From an uncultured Anaerolineae bacterium (lineage in GTDB: Bacteria; Chloroflexota; Anaerolineae; Anaerolineales; Villigracilaceae), in the NCBI GenBank assembly GCA_903822545.1, contig CAIJPN010000047.1, positions 1 to 41,819 of the forward strand: 41,819 nucleotides of DNA. Reading direction: 5' to 3'. Positions 7,869-37,966 of this stretch are shown here, one piece after another. The translations under genes and the position numbers were made by a program. The number at the start of each line of letters is the position of its first letter. Within the stretch, counting starts at the first letter, position 1. The notes beneath the pieces were generated by a model. That model was not told the DNA's origin and searched no databases. It was given only the letters and a program-made list of their open reading frames with translations.

Positions 7869-9473
7869 ATGACCGAATCTGAGAAGGAAAATACCACCGT
7901 TGAGAAGAGTTATCATCGCCGGAGTGCCGCCAATCGCCCCAGGTTGATGGATGGCGGTGTAAAAATCGATGAGTTTGAGAATGTTAAAGTGGCGATTTAC
8001 GCACGTGTTTCCAAAGAAGAACAATTAAACGGCTATTCCATTGAAGCGCAAAAGAATATTTGCCAGGGATTTTGCAAAGAACACAATTGGAATGTCGTGG
8101 AAATATTTGTTGAACCGGGGCTTTCTGCCAAAGACGACAAGCGCCCTGAGTTTTTGCGCATGATCGAAGATGCCAAAGCCCAAAAGTTCAACACGGTTTT
8201 AATTCATAAGCTGGATCGATTTAGCCGCAGCATCGACAATACCCTGCAATACTTCAAAGTATTATCTGACAACGAAGTTGCCTTGACTTCGGTGGCCGAG
8301 AAATTCGACTTTTCCAGCGCCCAGGGCCGTCTGTTTTTTCGCATGATGGCTATATTTGCTCAATGGTATCTGGAAAATCTTTCTTCCGAGGCTGTAAAAG
8401 GCAAGGATGAGATGTTCAATCAAGGAAGGCACAATGCCAGGCCCCCATTTGGATATACCCGCGTTTACCCCAGCAAAGAAATCATAACTATCCCGGAACA
8501 AGCTGAAGCCGTAAAAATGTCCTTTGAACTTGCTGCCAGCGGCTCGTACACCCACCGGCGCATCTCTGAAATCCTGAATATGAAGTTCAAAACCATAAAT
8601 GGCAACCTGTGGAGCAAAGATACTGTCAAAAACATGCTCCAGAACGAATTTTATTTCGGCATGGTTGCGCATCGTGACGAAATTCGCCCTGGGCAACACG
8701 AGGCCATCATTTCGCGTGAGTTATATGATAAAGTACAGGAAGTGAGCAGGCAGCGCGCAAAACTGCCAAAGAGTTTGCTTGTGGCGAAGCATAGTGCTCC
8801 TGAAAAGCCAACCGTTATCACGGATGAACAGCCTGAATTTTATTTGCTCCAGCGCATTGTCAGTTGTGATAGTTGTGGTCGGCATCTGCGCATACAGGGT
8901 GCCAAAGGTTATCACTACTACCGCGAGTCATCCGCAGAAAACGGACTTTCCTGTGATTTGCAGCGAAAAGGTGTTCGTATGGATGTGATGGATAATGAGG
9001 TGCTTGCCTTGCTTGGGAAGATAAAACTCCCGCAAAATTGGCAAGATGAAATCAAGCGTCGGGCCACAGATAAGGACATCATTGCCATGACGAAAGCCCG
9101 CAAAGCAAAGTTGGAAGACACAATCCGGCGCTTGGATACAGTCTACCTCCAGGGTTCATACGAACATAAAAATTACCTGGAAGAACGGGAAAAACTGACA
9201 TCGGAGTTAAACCGCCTTGTAATCCCTGACCAAAGCAGTGCGCTTGAAAAAGGGATGCTATTGGACAACCTGGGTGCTTTTTTAGAAAAAGCAACCCCGG
9301 CTCAACGGAATAATATATGCAGAACAATTATGGAAGCGGTGTATACTAATTTCAACAAAGAAAACTACATTACTCGTTTCAGGCCAGCGCCTGTGTTTAC
9401 TGAACTTTTTCGCATGGTTGCGGAAGAATCTGGCTGGCAGGAAACAACCACTGGTGAGTTTGCAATTGTGTAG
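7869..9473 (+). CDS. Large serine recombinase (site-specific integrase family)
   Basis: 534 residues. The N-terminal resolvase domain has IYARVSKEEQ with the catalytic Ser at residue 48, followed by YSIEAQ, GLSAKD and HKLDRFSRS. Next come the recombinase domain (PPFGYTRV, SKDTVKNMLQNEFYFGM), a zinc ribbon (CDSCG with a later Cys in LSCDLQ) and a C-terminal coiled coil of Glu/Lys-rich helices. This is the layout of phage and mobile-element integrases that join attP to attB without a tRNA rule. Base composition is lower in GC than the atp genes downstream. It lies 140 nt from tRNA-Ser, at the boundary between the defence-like genes and core genes. It may have brought in part of the left-hand region; no att core could be identified by eye. 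Confidence 0.9.
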   Translation: MTESEKENTTVEKSYHRRSAANRPRLMDGGVKIDEFENVKVAIYARVSKEEQLNGYSIEAQKNICQGFCKEHNWNVVEIFVEPGLSAKDDKRPEFLRMIEDAKAQKFNTVLIHKLDRFSRSIDNTLQYFKVLSDNEVALTSVAEKFDFSSAQGRLFFRMMAIFAQWYLENLSSEAVKGKDEMFNQGRHNARPPFGYTRVYPSKEIITIPEQAEAVKMSFELAASGSYTHRRISEILNMKFKTINGNLWSKDTVKNMLQNEFYFGMVAHRDEIRPGQHEAIISRELYDKVQEVSRQRAKLPKSLLVAKHSAPEKPTVITDEQPEFYLLQRIVSCDSCGRHLRIQGAKGYHYYRESSAENGLSCDLQRKGVRMDVMDNEVLALLGKIKLPQNWQDEIKRRATDKDIIAMTKARKAKLEDTIRRLDTVYLQGSYEHKNYLEEREKLTSELNRLVIPDQSSALEKGMLLDNLGAFLEKATPAQRNNICRTIMEAVYTNFNKENYITRFRPAPVFTELFRMVAEESGWQETTTGEFAIV

Positions 9474-9487
9474 TTTCGCGTAATATC

Positions 9488-9515
9488 TTGACTTTGTCGA
9501 CAAACTCACTATAAT
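9488..9515 (+). promoter_or_regulatory. Strong sigma-70-type promoter with palindromic spacer, no obvious gene
   Basis: TTGACT (9488-9493), 16-nt spacer, TATAAT (9510-9515). The spacer includes most of a perfect 12-bp palindrome TTTGTCGACAAA (9493-9504), which could be an operator. The transcript would run towards tRNA-Ser on the opposite strand; no coding sequence follows. Confidence 0.6.
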
Positions 9516-9540
9516 TGAACGTGTAAGGTTAATAACAAAA

Positions 9541-9570
9541 AAAGCACTCGTTCTGGCAAACGAGTGCTTT
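9541..9570 (-). terminator. Terminator of tRNA-Ser
   Basis: 12-bp perfect stem AAAGCACTCGTT / AACGAGTGCTTT with a 6-nt loop. On the minus strand it is followed by a T-run, so it ends transcription from the tRNA gene. Confidence 0.8.
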
Positions 9571-9612
9571 CAAAGCGACAAAATCCTCAACGGTCAAAGG
9601 AATTTGTCTGCG

Positions 9613-9702
9613 TGGCGGAGAGGGAGGGATTTGAACCCTCGTTCCCTTTCGGGAAACACGCTCTCCAGGCGTGCGCGCTAAACCAGGCTACGCGACCTCT
9701 CC
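9613..9702 (-). tRNA. tRNA-Ser (anticodon GGA)
   Basis: On the minus strand: acceptor GGAGAGG pairs with CCTCTCC; D-arm GCG...CGC; anticodon stem CACGC/GCGTG with loop CTGGAGA (anticodon GGA); long variable arm TTCCC-GAAA-GGGAA, diagnostic of class II tRNA; T-arm GAGGG-TTCAAAT-CCCTC; discriminator G and an encoded CCA (9613-9615). A TATAAT (9748-9753, minus) lies about 45 nt upstream. Confidence 0.96.
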
Positions 9703-9768
9703 GAGTGGATGCGCGGAATTGCTCCCGACGCCATCCGAGCGCGCAACATTATATCACTAAAAAATGAT

Positions 9769-9794
9769 ACAGGGCGGGGATTTTCCCGCCCTGT
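9769..9794. terminator. Bidirectional terminator after the ATP-grasp gene
   Basis: Stem ACAGGGCGGG / CCCGCCCTGT, 6-nt loop, T-runs on both sides (TTTT after, AAAAAA before). It sits 19 nt past the stop codon of the minus-strand gene. Confidence 0.75.
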
Positions 9795-9812
9795 TTTGCT
9801 GTTTTTGGAAGA

Positions 9813-10979
9813 TTAATTGCTATTCCCGCGCTTTTTTGCCGGTTCCTGGGGCAGTTCGCGGGCGGGTACCATGCCCCAGCGGCTGGCTCCCAGGTACAGG
9901 ATGTCGAGGATCAGGTCTTCGTAGGCGATGCCCTCGGCGGCGGCTTCCAGGCACAAGTCGCTGTAGCCGGGGGTCAGGCCGGGGAGGGTGTTGATTTCAA
10001 TCAAAACCGGCTCGCCTTTGGCGTTCAGGCGGATATCGGTGCGCGAGACATCGATAGCTTTGATGGCCATGTGTGATTTAACCACAAGCTGCTGGATTTT
10101 GCGGGTCAGATCGGCCGGAATTGGGGCCGGGCAGATGTAACCGGGCGCGCCCTCCTCGCCAACTTCTTTGGACTTGCTGGCCTGGCTGTAGATGCCTGGC
10201 GTGACCGAACGAGAACTATCCAACTCCAGCACGGGGAAAACGTGGTAGCCGAGCTTGTTTTCATCGTACCACTCGGGGTGGCGGGAGTATTTGCGCGAGT
10301 CCCAGCGCCCAATCAGGCCGCAGGTGAATTCACGCCCTGAGAGGAAGGTTTCTACCAGGGCGGGTTGGCGGTAAAACTTGATGATATATTCTACCCGTTC
10401 GCGCAGCTCAGACTCTTTGTTGACGATGGCTTTGGTATCCACGCCCATGCCGGTACCTTCACGGGCCGGTTTGACAAACAACGGGAATTCCAGTTCGGAG
10501 CGCAGCGACTCGTTGCCAATGATGAATTCCTGGAAAGGGGCTACCGGCAGGCGGCGGTCGCGCCAGATGCGTTTGGTGAGGGTTTTGTCGAGTGAGATTG
10601 CGTTTGCCATCACCCGTGAGTGTGTATAAGGAATCCTGAGCATTTCCAGCAGCGCTGGAACCTGCGCCTCGCGTGCGTCACCACCCAGGCCTTCGGCGAT
10701 GTTAAAGCAAATATCCGGTTTGATATCTTGTATTTTGTAAGGAAGAGAGCGGTCAGCCTGGAGGAAGACCGTTTTGTGTCCACCTGATTCGATGGCGTGG
10801 CGGATATGATCGATGGTTTCGATATGGTCAAAATCTGCCAGGGCATCTGCCGGGACATCCGGGGGAAGTTCCATATCATCAGCTTTTATGTTTGCCAGAA
10901 CGGCAACCAGCCACGATTTTTCGGGGCGAACAAGACTGGGAGGCTTTTCACCTTCCTGAGGGTTCTGAGCAGCGGGCAT
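9813..10979 (-). CDS. D-alanine--D-alanine ligase-like ATP-grasp protein
   Basis: 388 residues. ATP-grasp features in order: ICFNIAEGLGGDAREAQVPALLEML (the N-lobe substrate region of Ddl enzymes), SLDKTLTKRIW, PLFVKPAREGTGMGV (the phosphate-binding Lys-Pro and Gly loop), LVETFLSGREFTCGLIG, and the metal-binding C-terminal IEINTLPGLTPGYSD. These match D-Ala-D-Ala ligase relatives. The gene stands alone rather than in a mur/dcw cluster, and the N-terminal part departs from canonical Ddl, so it may be a paralogue acting on another amino acid or dipeptide. AAAGGAG lies upstream of the ATG and a good promoter is at 11009-11036. Confidence 0.8.
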   Translation of the reverse strand: MPAAQNPQEGEKPPSLVRPEKSWLVAVLANIKADDMELPPDVPADALADFDHIETIDHIRHAIESGGHKTVFLQADRSLPYKIQDIKPDICFNIAEGLGGDAREAQVPALLEMLRIPYTHSRVMANAISLDKTLTKRIWRDRRLPVAPFQEFIIGNESLRSELEFPLFVKPAREGTGMGVDTKAIVNKESELRERVEYIIKFYRQPALVETFLSGREFTCGLIGRWDSRKYSRHPEWYDENKLGYHVFPVLELDSSRSVTPGIYSQASKSKEVGEEGAPGYICPAPIPADLTRKIQQLVVKSHMAIKAIDVSRTDIRLNAKGEPVLIEINTLPGLTPGYSDLCLEAAAEGIAYEDLILDILYLGASRWGMVPARELPQEPAKKRGNSN

Positions 10980-34012: not shown

Positions 34013-35410
34013 ATGACCGCCCCCTCAACATTACAACTTTTTGGGTTAAAACCGGATTTACCCATCCTGGCAGGAGTCTCTGGCGGCCCGGACTCACTCG
34101 CCCTTTTGCATTTCCTGCGCAGCTCAGACCGCCCTGTCATCTGCGCCTCGTTTAACCATCATCTCCGCCCCGAATCAGATGATGACATTGCCCACGTCCG
34201 CCAAATCGCCGCTGCCATGGGCGTGACCTTCGTCACTGATTCAGCCGATGTAGCGGCCTATGCCGCCGCCGAGAGCATGTCCACCGAAGAAGCCGCCCGC
34301 ACCCTGCGCTACCGCTTCCTGTTCAGCGAAGCCCGCAAAGCCGGGGCGCAGGCCGTTGCCGTAGGCCACACCGCCGATGACCAGGCCGAAACCGTCCTCA
34401 TGCACTTCTTGCGTGGAGCGGGGCTATCTGGCCTGAAAGGGATGCCGCCTCGTGTTATCCTGCCTACCTTCGATGCCGAAATCCCCCTGATCCGCCCGCT
34501 GCTCAGATGGGCTCGCGCCGATACCGAAGCATACTGCCAAGAAAACAACCTCACCCCGCGCTACGACTCATCCAACACCGACACCACTTACCTGAGAAAC
34601 CGTCTGCGTCACGAACTGCTGCCCCTGCTTGAAAGTTACAACCCGCAGATCCGCCAGGCCCTGGCACATAGCGCCCTGGCCCTGCAAGGTGACCATGAAC
34701 TGCTGCTCGAAGCCGTTGAAGGCGCCTGGGAAAATACCCTGGTAGAGCGCGGCAGCGGCTACATAGCTTTCGACCGCATCATGCTCGAATACTATTCTGA
34801 ACCCATGCTGCGTAATATCTTCCGAAAAGCTATCTCGACCATTTCGCCCAATTTGCGCGATGTCGACTTTGATGCGCTCACCCGCGCTGCCAGCCTGGGG
34901 ACGGGCACCATTGACCTGGTGGGCGGCCTGCAAATGTTTACCGAGGGGCAGATCATCTATGTAGCCAGCCCCAACGCCTGGTTCCCGCCGGTTTACTGGC
35001 CGCAGCTCAGCAAGGAATACACCATTGAGACCGGGCTGGCCCCGATGGGCAACGACTGGGTTCTTCACGTAGAAGAAATTTCCGGCAGCGAGGCGCTCTC
35101 ACAGGTTAATGAGAACCAGGATCCATTTACAGCCTGGTTAGATGTTGATTTGGCGAGAGACCTGGTTTGGGTGCGAAACTATCATCCCGGTGACAAATTT
35201 GAGCCGTTAGGCATGCCCGGGATGCAGGTTAAACTCTCCGACCTGTTTGTTAATCAAAAAATCCCCAAGCGCGCCCGCCCGAAGTGGCCGCTGGTGTGCG
35301 TGGGCGATGAGATTGCCTGGGTGGTGGGCTTGCGCGTGGCCCACGCCTGGCGGGTAACTGAGAAGACGCAAAAAGCGTTGCGTATGCAGTTGAATAAGCT
35401 CCAAATGTAA
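34013..35410 (+). CDS. tilS: tRNA(Ile)-lysidine synthase
   Basis: 465 residues. Attaches lysine to C34 of tRNA-Ile(CAU) so that it reads AUA. PP-loop SGGPDS at residues 23-28; FNHHLRPESDDD, EEAARTLRYRFL, VGHTADDQAETVLMHFLRGAGLSGLKGM and YDSSNTD...RNRLRHELLP are all typical of TilS. The C-terminal domain has NYHPGDKFEPLGMPG and KLSDLFVNQKIPKRARPKWPLV. An intact, full-length TilS. Its stop codon lies within the terminator hairpin. Confidence 0.95.
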   Translation: MTAPSTLQLFGLKPDLPILAGVSGGPDSLALLHFLRSSDRPVICASFNHHLRPESDDDIAHVRQIAAAMGVTFVTDSADVAAYAAAESMSTEEAARTLRYRFLFSEARKAGAQAVAVGHTADDQAETVLMHFLRGAGLSGLKGMPPRVILPTFDAEIPLIRPLLRWARADTEAYCQENNLTPRYDSSNTDTTYLRNRLRHELLPLLESYNPQIRQALAHSALALQGDHELLLEAVEGAWENTLVERGSGYIAFDRIMLEYYSEPMLRNIFRKAISTISPNLRDVDFDALTRAASLGTGTIDLVGGLQMFTEGQIIYVASPNAWFPPVYWPQLSKEYTIETGLAPMGNDWVLHVEEISGSEALSQVNENQDPFTAWLDVDLARDLVWVRNYHPGDKFEPLGMPGMQVKLSDLFVNQKIPKRARPKWPLVCVGDEIAWVVGLRVAHAWRVTEKTQKALRMQLNKLQM

Positions 35411-35485: not shown

Positions 35486-36388
35486 TTAATCGCCCCGCGA
35501 AACCAGCTGCTTGAGTTTAATGCTCAGTTCGCGCCACTGGATTTTGGAAACGCCCAAGTTCTGACGGATTTTATCATTTTCAACGCCGCGTTTGTGTTCG
35601 CCGATGGCGTAGGTCCAGCGGCACATGTCGAAAGACAGGTGCTTGTCGAGCGCAGCGTCATTGCCGATGTCTTCTAGCAAGTATTCCAGGCGGCGCGGTG
35701 ACCAGGGGAACAGGCGATCTGCCGGGTTGTACTGGTTGACATATTCTTTATAAGCAGGCAGCCAGTCATCCATGAGTGCCAGTTTACGCTCTTTGTAGCG
35801 GTTGACCGGGCTGGCGTAGCGGATGAAAACGGTGGGGCCTTCGGGGGCGCTCAGGTCTATGTGGTTGATGTGGATGCCCAGGCATTCGCTCTTTTTGATG
35901 CCGGTGGTGAGCAGCAGGTAGACCAGGGCATAGGGGCGCGCATCTGGTTTGGGGCGGCGGCGATAGCGGTCGGCGGCCAGCAGTACTGCTTGAATTTCAT
36001 CATCGCTCAGGACGACAGGCAGCGGACTGATGGCAGAGCGCTGGAGCACTTTTTCCGCCGGGTCGATCATCAGCACCCCGTTTTTGTGCAGCCAGCGAAA
36101 GAAGGATTTTGCTGTGGTGATGCGCCGTGCCAGGGTTTTGGGGCTGCATGGCACGCCGCGTTCATTTTGCATCCATTCAAAGAATTTATTCAAGTCTTCG
36201 GTGCGAACCGCTCCGACAGTTTGTTCGGGTGGAAAATAAGAAGCCAGCAGGCGCAAATCTGACAAGAACGCTTTTACGGTGTAAGGGGAACGTCCCTGGT
36301 CGTGCAGGTAAATTTCGTATGCGCTGATTGCCGGTGGAATTGTAACAGTCGAAGTGATATGAGCAGTAGCATTTGGGGTTGCAGCCAT
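35486..36388 (-). CDS. Tyrosine-recombinase-like protein lacking catalytic residues
   Basis: 300 residues. Architecture is XerC/XerD-like: N-terminal SAM-like core-binding domain (ISAYEIYLHDQGRSPYTVKAFLSDLRLLASYF, SPKTLARRITTAKSFFRWLHKNGVLMIDPAEKV) and a C-terminal catalytic-fold domain (LSDDEIQAVLLAADR, LVYLLLTTGIKKSECLGI). The first catalytic Arg of TGLRxSE is Lys (TGIKKSE); the HxLR box is DMCR, so His is lost though Arg remains; LGH becomes LGV; and QWRELS has no nucleophilic Tyr. It is thus unlikely to cut DNA and may be a DNA-binding relative. The gene is otherwise intact, not decayed, which argues for a kept non-catalytic role. Confidence 0.75.
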   Translation of the reverse strand: MAATPNATAHITSTVTIPPAISAYEIYLHDQGRSPYTVKAFLSDLRLLASYFPPEQTVGAVRTEDLNKFFEWMQNERGVPCSPKTLARRITTAKSFFRWLHKNGVLMIDPAEKVLQRSAISPLPVVLSDDEIQAVLLAADRYRRRPKPDARPYALVYLLLTTGIKKSECLGIHINHIDLSAPEGPTVFIRYASPVNRYKERKLALMDDWLPAYKEYVNQYNPADRLFPWSPRRLEYLLEDIGNDAALDKHLSFDMCRWTYAIGEHKRGVENDKIRQNLGVSKIQWRELSIKLKQLVSRGD

Positions 36389-36488
36389 TATTTATATCTC
36401 CTTTAATAACATTACTGCGCATAGTTTAGCACATTTGGCGTGTAATTCAATACCCTGGAGGGAATTAATACGCGTTTGTCATATATTG

Positions 36489-36512: not shown

Positions 36513-36549
36513 AAAGCTACAAAGAAACTATACACTTCTTCGTAGCTTT
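36513..36549 (-). terminator. Terminator of der
   Basis: 14-nt arms AAAGCTACAAAGAA / TTCTTCGTAGCTTT with one mismatch, 9-nt loop; on the minus strand followed by TTTTTGC. Confidence 0.6.
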
Positions 36550-36598: not shown

Positions 36599-37966
36599 TC
36601 ATTTTTCGTTGCGAGCCTTGGGGATCAGGCGGATGGGGGTGCCCACAAAGCCATACTCCTCGCGGATGCGGTTTTCGAGGAAGCGGATGTAGGTGAAGTG
36701 CATCAGGGTTGGGTCGTTGACAAAGAGCAGGAAGGTGGGCGGGTCGGAGCGTACCTGGGTGGCGTAGTAGATTTTGAGCTGCCGCCCAGCGTGGGATGGG
36801 GCAGGGTGGGTATCCTGGGCGTTTTGCAGCAGGATGTTCAGCTTGGAAGTGGTTAAGCGTGCCAGTCTTTCCTCCTGCACCCGCAGGGCGGTGGGTAGAA
36901 CCTGGTCAACGCGCTGGCCTGTTTTGGCGGAAATGAACATCAGCGGCACGTAATCCATAAAGTTCAACTGCTCGCGCACTTTTTTTGTGTATGCATCCAT
37001 GGTGTAGGTGTCTTTAACCACCGCATCCCATTTGTTGACCAGCACTACACACGATTTCCACTCTTCCAGGATGTACCCGGCGATGTGCGTATCCTGGGCG
37101 GTGATGCCTTCTTCGGCGTCGATCATTAGCAGTACAACATCGGCGCGTTCGATGGCTTTGAAGGAGCGCACGACTGAGAATTTTTCCACGCCCGGGTCGA
37201 TCCGCCCACGCCGGCGGATGCCGGCTGTATCGATAAGTGTGACCGGGATGCCATCAAATTCGATTTTGGTGTCCACTGCATCGCGGGTGGTGCCGGCGAT
37301 GGGGCTGACGATGGCGCGCTCCTTACCGGCCAGCCGGTTAAGCAGGCTGGATTTGCCAGCGTTGGGTTTGCCCACGATGGCGATTTTGACCGATTCATCG
37401 TTTTCTTCTTCTTCCTGGTTGGGGAAGGTTGCCAGTAGTGCATCCAGCAGATCGCCGGTGTCTGTTCCGTGTACGGCTGAGATGGCGTACGGGTCGCCCA
37501 GGCCGAGTTCGTAGAACTGTCCCACGTTGTCGCGCTCGGTCAGGCTTTCGCATTTGTTGACCACCAGGAAAATCGGCGGGAAGGGTTTGCCATCCACCAT
37601 TTTTTGGCTGCGACGCAAAATTTGGGCTACCTCGCGGTCGGCGGGGGTGACGCCGCTCTGACCATCGCACAGCAGGAAAACCACATCTGCTTCACCGATG
37701 GCGATGCGCGCCTGGGCCTTGATCTCGTTGATGAAATCGGCTGAACCGATGGAGAGCGGGGTTTTGCCGCCGTGTGAAGGGTCGATGCCGCCGGTGTCAA
37801 CCACGTCAAACCTGATGCCGCTCCATTCGGCTTCGGCAAAGATGCGGTCTCGGGTGGTGCCGGGGGTGTCGTCTACAATAGCCAGTCGTTCACCGACCAG
37901 GCGATTAAATAGGGTGCTTTTGCCCACGTTGGGGCGTCCTACAAGTGCTACTACAGGTTTGGTCAT
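36599..37966 (-). CDS. der: Ribosome-assembly GTPase Der (EngA)
   Basis: 455 residues. Two tandem G domains are diagnostic. G domain 1: GRPNVGKSTLFN, DTPGTTRD, DTGG, NKCE. G domain 2: GKPNAGKSSLLN, PIAGTTRDAVDT, DTAG, NKWD. A C-terminal KH-like domain has KIYYATQVRSDPPTFLLFVNDP. Der acts in maturation of the 50S subunit. The gene is monocistronic or follows ybbR at a distance of 150 nt. Confidence 0.97.
   Translation of the reverse strand: MTKPVVALVGRPNVGKSTLFNRLVGERLAIVDDTPGTTRDRIFAEAEWSGIRFDVVDTGGIDPSHGGKTPLSIGSADFINEIKAQARIAIGEADVVFLLCDGQSGVTPADREVAQILRRSQKMVDGKPFPPIFLVVNKCESLTERDNVGQFYELGLGDPYAISAVHGTDTGDLLDALLATFPNQEEEENDESVKIAIVGKPNAGKSSLLNRLAGKERAIVSPIAGTTRDAVDTKIEFDGIPVTLIDTAGIRRRGRIDPGVEKFSVVRSFKAIERADVVLLMIDAEEGITAQDTHIAGYILEEWKSCVVLVNKWDAVVKDTYTMDAYTKKVREQLNFMDYVPLMFISAKTGQRVDQVLPTALRVQEERLARLTTSKLNILLQNAQDTHPAPSHAGRQLKIYYATQVRSDPPTFLLFVNDPTLMHFTYIRFLENRIREEYGFVGTPIRLIPKARNEK

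Follow-up and report, generated by a model that had tools for sequence, protein, structure and literature searches.

Naming by homology would call the product of the gene at 35486-36388 a recombinase, and the question raised by this locus is what such a protein does, and on which DNA it acts, when nearly the whole catalytic set has been replaced. The gene lies in the window, i.e. the whole stretch of 41,819 nucleotides that was analysed, from an uncultured Anaerolineae bacterium. The PHROGs label of the protein is integrase, and all 73 members of the family set A1 match the XerD, XerC and XerA models at E ≤ 0.001. With the NCBIfam XerA, XerC and XerD models, the window protein reaches 87.4, 76.4 and 75.8 bits against cut-offs of 220, 335.15 and 329.6, respectively. 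The gene, the parts of its product and its two neighbours are as follows.

34013-35410, plus strand: tilS, convergent, downstream neighbour of the Xer-like gene (profile matches).
35486-36388, minus strand: Xer-like gene, 300 amino acids, apparently catalytically dead tyrosine-recombinase fold (open reading frame, Pfam, model of mean pLDDT 94.3).
35540-36010, minus strand: degenerate catalytic domain, residues 127-283 (Pfam PF00589, Phage_integrase, 28.6 bits, cut-off 27.1).
35549-35557, minus strand: LGV, residues 278-280, Val280 standing for the lost His III, with no Tyr after it (alignment).
35618-35629, minus strand: DMCR, residues 254-257, Asp254 standing for the lost His II and Arg257 being the kept Arg II (alignment).
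35801-35803, minus strand: Asn196, in the column of the beta-hairpin catalytic Lys (alignment).
35894-35905, minus strand: TGIK, residues 162-165, Lys165 in place of Arg I (alignment).
36083-36142, minus strand: helix with K84, R88, R89 and K94 (invariance in 66 of 66 class-level sequences; helix from the model).
36083-36325, minus strand: core-binding (SAM-like) domain, residues 22-102 (Pfam PF02899, 39.2 bits, cut-off 22.3).
36599-37966, minus strand: der (engA), same-strand upstream neighbour (profile matches).

The 300-residue frame is open throughout, as an earlier note on this DNA had stated, and is preceded by an in-frame stop two codons before its ATG. The codon usage was said to resemble that of the neighbours, and this holds: the RSCU correlation is 0.88 with the six neighbours pooled, within the range of 0.81-0.93 obtained when each neighbour is compared with the other five. 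The gene stands beside the housekeeping stretch coaE-cdaA-ybbR-der. In many order-level relatives tilS is convergent downstream as well, der was not adjacent to it at the loci examined in relatives, and several order-level relatives have LCP-like, LysM and kinase genes (named by eye) upstream. A constant operon partner was rejected, tilS and three other families being near the gene in many relatives of the order and none of them throughout. A defence system was also discarded, no PADLOC match being obtained for the Xer-like protein.

The two-domain Xer fold is retained, in agreement with the earlier note, both Pfam domains scoring above their cut-offs and the AlphaFold model (mean pLDDT 94.3, pTM 0.77) resembling known Xer structures. 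The first two structural matches by Z are XerA (5hxy) and XerH (5jjv), and the comparison with DNA-bound XerH gives a Z of 19.7 and an rmsd of 3.7 Å over 277 residues. Alignment with Xer-type proteins from this genome and from related ones set the catalytic columns. Of the six catalytic positions the window protein retains only Arg II (Arg257), the other five being changed, and the column of the hairpin Lys (Asn196) sits in a longer, rebuilt loop. The motif losses announced by the note were recovered for TGIK, LGV, His II and the Tyr; DMCR, which it had counted among the replaced motifs, is not wholly lost, its Arg being precisely the retained Arg II.

The same columns were read in 66 class-level sequences, window included, and the replacements are largely fixed there. 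The Arg I position is K in 64 and R in two (L076 and L077), the hairpin Lys is K in only one (L084), the His II position is D in 42, E in 19 and another residue in five, never H, and the His III position is V, L or I in all 66, never H, while Arg II is R in 66/66. No Tyr is present 26-60 residues past Arg II in 58 of them. A shifted or alternative Tyr was considered for the class and rejected, the other eight sequences carrying one at +29 (two), +32 (one), +42/+48, +42, +43 or +52 (two), with no common place. The normal-place Tyr is lost in 65 of the 66; the only one with a Tyr at the normal spacing, L028 (+32), is without Arg I and without both His. No orthologue with a full catalytic set was found among the aligned relatives. 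The intact Xer-type set (n = 23), drawn from weaker matches of the same query and hence not a random sample, keeps Arg I, His II, Arg II and a Tyr at +32 in all 23 rows, His III in 21 (two without it) and the hairpin Lys in 18 (five without it); L123, fetched as a family match, proved canonical and is counted there. As the replacement pattern is common to the class, it is not the decay of one copy, and the earlier reading as a non-cutting protein is strengthened by these largely shared replacements: judged from its sequence, the window protein is non-cutting.

Among more distant relatives of the phylum, gathered as groups B, C and D (14, 6 and 7 loci), Arg I, His II and His III are lost in 27/27. 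The hairpin Lys is kept in 11 of the 14 group B loci, and a Tyr is found at +35 after Arg II in all 14 and at +36 in all six loci of group C. Groups B and C are therefore less clearly inactive than the class members. The Tyr of group B (L100-L111, L129, L130) and of group C (L112, L114, L115, L117, L120, L125) lies 3 or 4 residues past the catalytic place.

The family is widespread. A match at E ≤ 1e-50 is present in 58 of 61 genomes at the order level, and a homologue at E ≤ 1e-18 in 250 of 298 at the class level, weaker or fragmentary copies being scored as absent in this tally. At the phylum level, 93 of 301 genomes give a match at E ≤ 1e-12, 37 of these 93 being within the class and the weakest of those outside it being partly ordinary Xers. 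The 80 named matches that were kept come chiefly from Anaerolineae, Anaerolineales and Chloroflexi MAGs. A tree was built from 75 rows (52 family and 23 intact rows; L053-L064, duplicates of L024-L052, were kept out of the alignments). It splits the dead groups A-D from all 23 intact rows with an SH-aLRT of 99, and the split persists (SH-aLRT 97) once catalytic blocks and C-terminus have been removed. With an assumed root, this clade fits one early loss of catalysis. In six pairs of relatives dN/dS is 0.028-0.09 (dS 0.6-2.1), highlighting purifying selection, as the check proposed with the earlier note required. The presence in 250 of 298 class genomes, this constraint and a clade apart from the intact Xer-type rows agree with its description of the gene as domesticated. 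A phage origin of the dead form was rejected: among six viral-contig homologues (two of them identical), five read by eye as intact and one is a fragment ending just past Arg I.

The conserved residues point to what has been kept. All 66 class-level sequences share K84, R88, R89 and K94, which the core-binding domain carries on its fourth helix, as well as R201 and R257. From the Xer and Cre structures, we take this fourth helix to be one that faces DNA. Several of the invariant basic positions are basic in the intact rows too, so that the DNA face would have been kept and is not new. The model also matches the DNA-bound SroF repressor (9rd5) with a Z of 15.2. The invariant basic residues and the clamp-shaped model thus speak for the DNA binding proposed by the note as a probable property, and the window protein is an ancient, selected, non-cutting protein which probably still binds DNA.

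A candidate target was found upstream of the gene: its own promoter is overlapped by a conserved element, TAAACTAT(A/G)CGNA, which occurs elsewhere at chance level in the genomes tested. In the window, this region contains the following features.

36398-36404, minus strand: Shine-Dalgarno-like AAAGGAG of the Xer-like gene (read from the sequence).
36416-36428, minus strand: conserved promoter element TAAACTATGCGCA, candidate operator (comparison of upstream regions).
36423-36450, minus strand: promoter-like TTGAAT-N16-TAAACT overlapping the conserved element (read by eye).
36513-36549, minus strand: terminator-like stem-loop after der (scan: 2 in the region against 1.6 expected in shuffles, weak).

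Because of the terminator-like stem after der, the Xer-like gene may be its own transcription unit, the scan behind this being weak. A scan for strict consensus promoters found none at the Xer-like gene, where 1.2 were expected. From the 81 upstream regions 75 were usable, window included, and in this set, which is also the one in which the element was noticed, 62 contain TAAACTATRCGNA exactly and 6 more contain it with one mismatch, i.e. 68/75 against 5/1500 mononucleotide shuffles. Of these 68, 38 have another CTAYRCGC within 25 bp downstream, mostly at 13 bp (2/3400 in shuffles); the window promoter has a single copy of the element. In 40 fresh genomes, the core CTAYRCGMA was present 18 times in sense and twice in antisense orientation, compared with 24/2000 shuffles. 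At 35 class-level loci outside the window's family, it was found 17 times in sense and once in antisense, the control genes of those loci giving 4/291 and 12/291, respectively. Upstream of groups B, C and D, where the start codons are uncertain, the element was found in 0/27.

Elsewhere the element is rare. Exact TAAACTATRCGMA has 12 matches in ten genomes, nine of them at the Xer-like promoter, and the reversed control has 10; two of the three extra matches lie in apparent coding sequence (by eye). In the assembly of the window's genome, 36416-36428 is the only exact match. With one mismatch allowed, nine matches were found elsewhere in eight genomes against 39 for the reversed control, and the double form occurs only at the Xer-like promoter, in 2 of ten genomes. 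A general promoter motif or a regulon was rejected, since matches elsewhere are at or below the control. Being at or below control elsewhere, the element is specific to the Xer-like gene, and its position at the gene's own promoter suggests autoregulation by the Xer-like protein, which is the simplest reading of these upstream sequences.

The element could instead be bound by another regulator, or act as RNA in the 5' leader. Its orientation is almost without exception sense and, beyond the window's family, its core lies mostly downstream of the -10 box, both of which would suit such a reading. The leader element is often close to the ribosome-binding site outside the window's family, and in view of this closeness and of the sense bias a role in the mRNA leader is kept in mind.

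The early suggestion of a part in chromosome organisation is not supported, since no repeated binding element was found and, in five single-contig genomes, gene and dnaA are 6-33% of the chromosome apart. With dnaA standing in for the origin, the distances are about 6% (G008), 10% (G265), 18% (G303), 16% (G301) and 33% (G070); dnaA was sought in seven single-contig genomes, of which G286 and G279 gave no distance because the place of the gene was not listed, and G125 was also left out, its dnaA being on another contig. This location away from the terminus argues against a dif-like role of a linked site. A dif site beside the gene, in the manner of XerS and XerH, was rejected on the same distances and because no inverted repeat of at least 8 bases surrounds the element in the four genomes inspected. 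In PMC3025954, dif is predicted in 3/3 of the Chloroflexi covered there.

A second feature was found at the N-terminus of relatives. In many of them the tail carries QLPLF, QLSLF, QPPLF or a similar peptide, at the N-terminus or close to it, with a variable linker behind. Such peptides correspond to the published clamp-binding consensus QL[S/D]LF or QxxLF, with QLSLPL in Hda (PMC12309361 and PMC4549789). Tails were read over at most 75 residues before the core in the fresh set of 40 genomes and at most 110 in the other sets, regardless of the start codon, so that a few may be untranslated. In the fresh set the clamp peptide is present in 24 genomes, against 20/2000 shuffled tails and 0/20 intact Xers. 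In an exploratory survey of the sequences where the motif was noticed, QxxL[FW] or QxxLLP was counted in 13/14 of group B, 6/6 of group C, 15/35 of other families of the class and 2/30 of the window's family, the latter two cases being probably not real (QHALW probably before the start codon, QTPLLP at the edge of the core). Group D reaches 4/7 when the Hda-like hexapeptide QLxLP[LFIV] is allowed, and in L113 of this group a clamp-type motif was read by eye further upstream. In the model of L264 the N-terminal tail is poorly ordered (pLDDT about 49). The main DnaE proteins have the form Qxx[LM]F in 5/7 and second copies in 0/3, and DnaE of the window's genome carries QMSLF.

In a tree of 98 family rows, the clamp motif is found in all four groups and 18 changes are needed, which indicates repeated loss or gain; our own reading is that the motif is ancestral and was lost several times. 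It is missing from the window protein and from its whole 13-row clade. The in-frame stop before the ATG leaves no hidden N-terminal tail in the window protein. The peptide, being absent from this clade, says nothing direct about the present role of the window gene. In three of the seven group D loci (L121, L122, L124, at about 7900-10100), the Xer-like gene faces an ScpA gene in convergent orientation, the two overlapping by 90-117 bp, which is suggestive of a link to segregation and no more; in L122, the Xer-like gene has genes for a DUF512 radical-SAM protein, a cytidylate kinase and a pseudouridine synthase upstream. Together, the clamp peptide and the ScpA neighbour of relatives leave room for a role in replication or segregation.

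From these data we favour, with somewhat more confidence than doubt, a domesticated non-cutting DNA binder of the Xer superfamily, whose best-supported target is its own promoter and whose ancestral form probably worked at the sliding clamp. The two domains of the protein would close round a short DNA site, gripping it through the core-binding domain's invariant basic residues and the retained Arg II. This site would be the conserved element of 12-13 bp overlapping its own -10 box, followed in many relatives by a second copy 12-19 bp downstream, and binding there would repress the gene itself. The occurrence of the clamp peptide in many other lineages suggests that the ancestral form, with an N-terminal beta-clamp peptide, probably acted at the sliding clamp in replication or repair; the window's lineage would lack the peptide and have kept the DNA-binding body. 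Several points weigh against this explanation. A DNA binder having its own promoter as the only recognisable site lacks an obvious purpose, although looser targets may have been missed; the strict promoter scan is negative, the window has one copy of the element and groups B, C and D have none in 27; and inactivity is less complete outside the window (the Tyr of B and C, the Lys of B, and L084, L076, L077 and L028).

The emphasis may lie on the replisome. A rival reading makes the protein an accessory of it, a dead recombinase clamp tethered to the beta clamp at forks, junctions or a specific site, the window's lineage using other contacts. It draws on the QLPLF-type peptides of groups A, B, C and D with the Hda-like hexapeptide of D, on their identity with the clamp consensus published in PMC12309361 and PMC4549789, on the QMSLF of DnaE in the same genome and on the ScpA gene adjoining in 3/7 group D loci. 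The window protein has no peptide, an upstream start is blocked by the in-frame stop and, among the fetched loci, no replication gene adjoins throughout, so that we regard this reading as rather unlikely. A broader version, in which the dead Xer of the whole phylum is a clamp-tethered replisome accessory gripping DNA or branched forks and dosing itself through a single operator in the class, the window's lineage having later become a free regulator without tether, is advanced tentatively as possible. A nucleoid or chromosome-organising protein with many sites would agree with the core-gene distribution, the clamp peptide of relatives and the ScpA neighbour in 3/7 group D loci; the only conserved element found is single-copy (9 near matches elsewhere against 39 in the control, eight genomes), which makes such a protein improbable.

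Two further readings keep the protein nearer to recombination. XerC/XerD heterotetramers are normal, and intact Xer-type proteins exist in the same genome, so that the protein was considered as a non-catalytic subunit joining an intact Xer in mixed synaptic complexes at dif. The intact protein on C136 is matched (E ≤ 1e-30) in only 12/61 genomes compared with 58/61 for the dead one (E ≤ 1e-50), although other intact Xers could serve; moreover, the Tyr-bearing segment is gone or rebuilt, four genomes show no inverted repeat of at least 8 bases around the element, and in five the gene stands away from the terminus. We regard this partnership as quite improbable. If the protein were a recombinase working by an unusual chemistry, or a remnant in slow decay, this would account for the conservation of Arg II and of an intact frame, for the near-C-terminal Tyr of groups B and C and for the hairpin Lys in 11/14 of group B. 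The change of 5/6 catalytic positions and the absence of Tyr from 58/66 class-level tails speak against both forms, and dN/dS of 0.03-0.09 against neutral decay. MrpR, which has similar losses, gave no recombination in vitro (PMC10516654). This last reading is very improbable.

The preferred explanation, a non-cutting binder of its own promoter, can be compared with known systems. The intact Xers (XerA, XerC/D, XerH, XerS) share fold, two-domain layout and overall sequence with the window protein; they keep the catalytic set, whereas the window protein has lost R-K-H-R-H and Tyr except Arg II. The XerS and XerH genes can adjoin their single dif site, according to PMC2731167, and the single element beside the Xer-like gene resembles this arrangement; in contrast to Xer/dif, the four genomes gave no inverted repeat at the element and in the five the gene lies away from the terminus. 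The phage repressors MrpR/YopR (SPbeta) and SroF (phi3T) use a recombinase fold as a DNA-binding repressor, and the window protein shares with them the fold and catalytic losses. In MrpR, Arg I is represented by V137/S138, His II by N254, Arg II by V257/R258 and His III by V291 (PMC10516654). MrpR keeps Lys and Tyr, whereas the window protein has lost both, and the structural match of the model to the MrpR-type 8a0a (Z 13.2, rmsd 17.3) shows domains arranged differently. MrpR and SroF are prophage genes, in contrast to the Xer-like gene, which is a class-wide core gene with housekeeping neighbours. As to an operator of the MrpR/SroF type, the Xer-like gene offers only its conserved promoter element as a candidate.

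NF002685 describes what we take to be a streptococcal XerD-like protein, non-cutting and located by scpA. It is matched by 10/73 family members, and ScpA is the neighbour in 3/7 group D loci; the window protein has no match to it at E ≤ 0.1, and the streptococcal protein comes from a different phylum. Clamp binders with QxxLF or QLxLPL (PolC, Hda) have a peptide like that at the N-terminus of many relatives, not of the window protein. PMC4549789 and PMC12309361 count polymerases, transposases and Hda among the known clamp-binding proteins. In the open-licence literature of PMC, neither a dead recombinase with a clamp-binding tail nor a paper describing this Xer-like family was found.

Dead recombinases otherwise met in the literature are phage repressors, and here the form is a class-wide core gene under strong selection, and further classes of the phylum have related proteins. 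Beyond the earlier note, the single conserved promoter element and the clamp peptide, absent from the window's lineage, are new leads, the peptide tying the family to the replication machinery. If the favoured explanation is true, the 'XerC/XerD' names given by homology are wrong for this family, and a conserved DNA-transaction protein of the phylum has so far been overlooked.

Two observations were made in passing. The window's genome has 22 integrase matches overall, and its contig C219 (9.8 kb) carries four integrase-family matches with open frames (L007, L009, L010, L012). Chain 14 of PDB 9i5v, 401 residues long and named ribosome-associated inhibitor RaiA, contains a Xer-like segment at residues 7-201 with Arg I.
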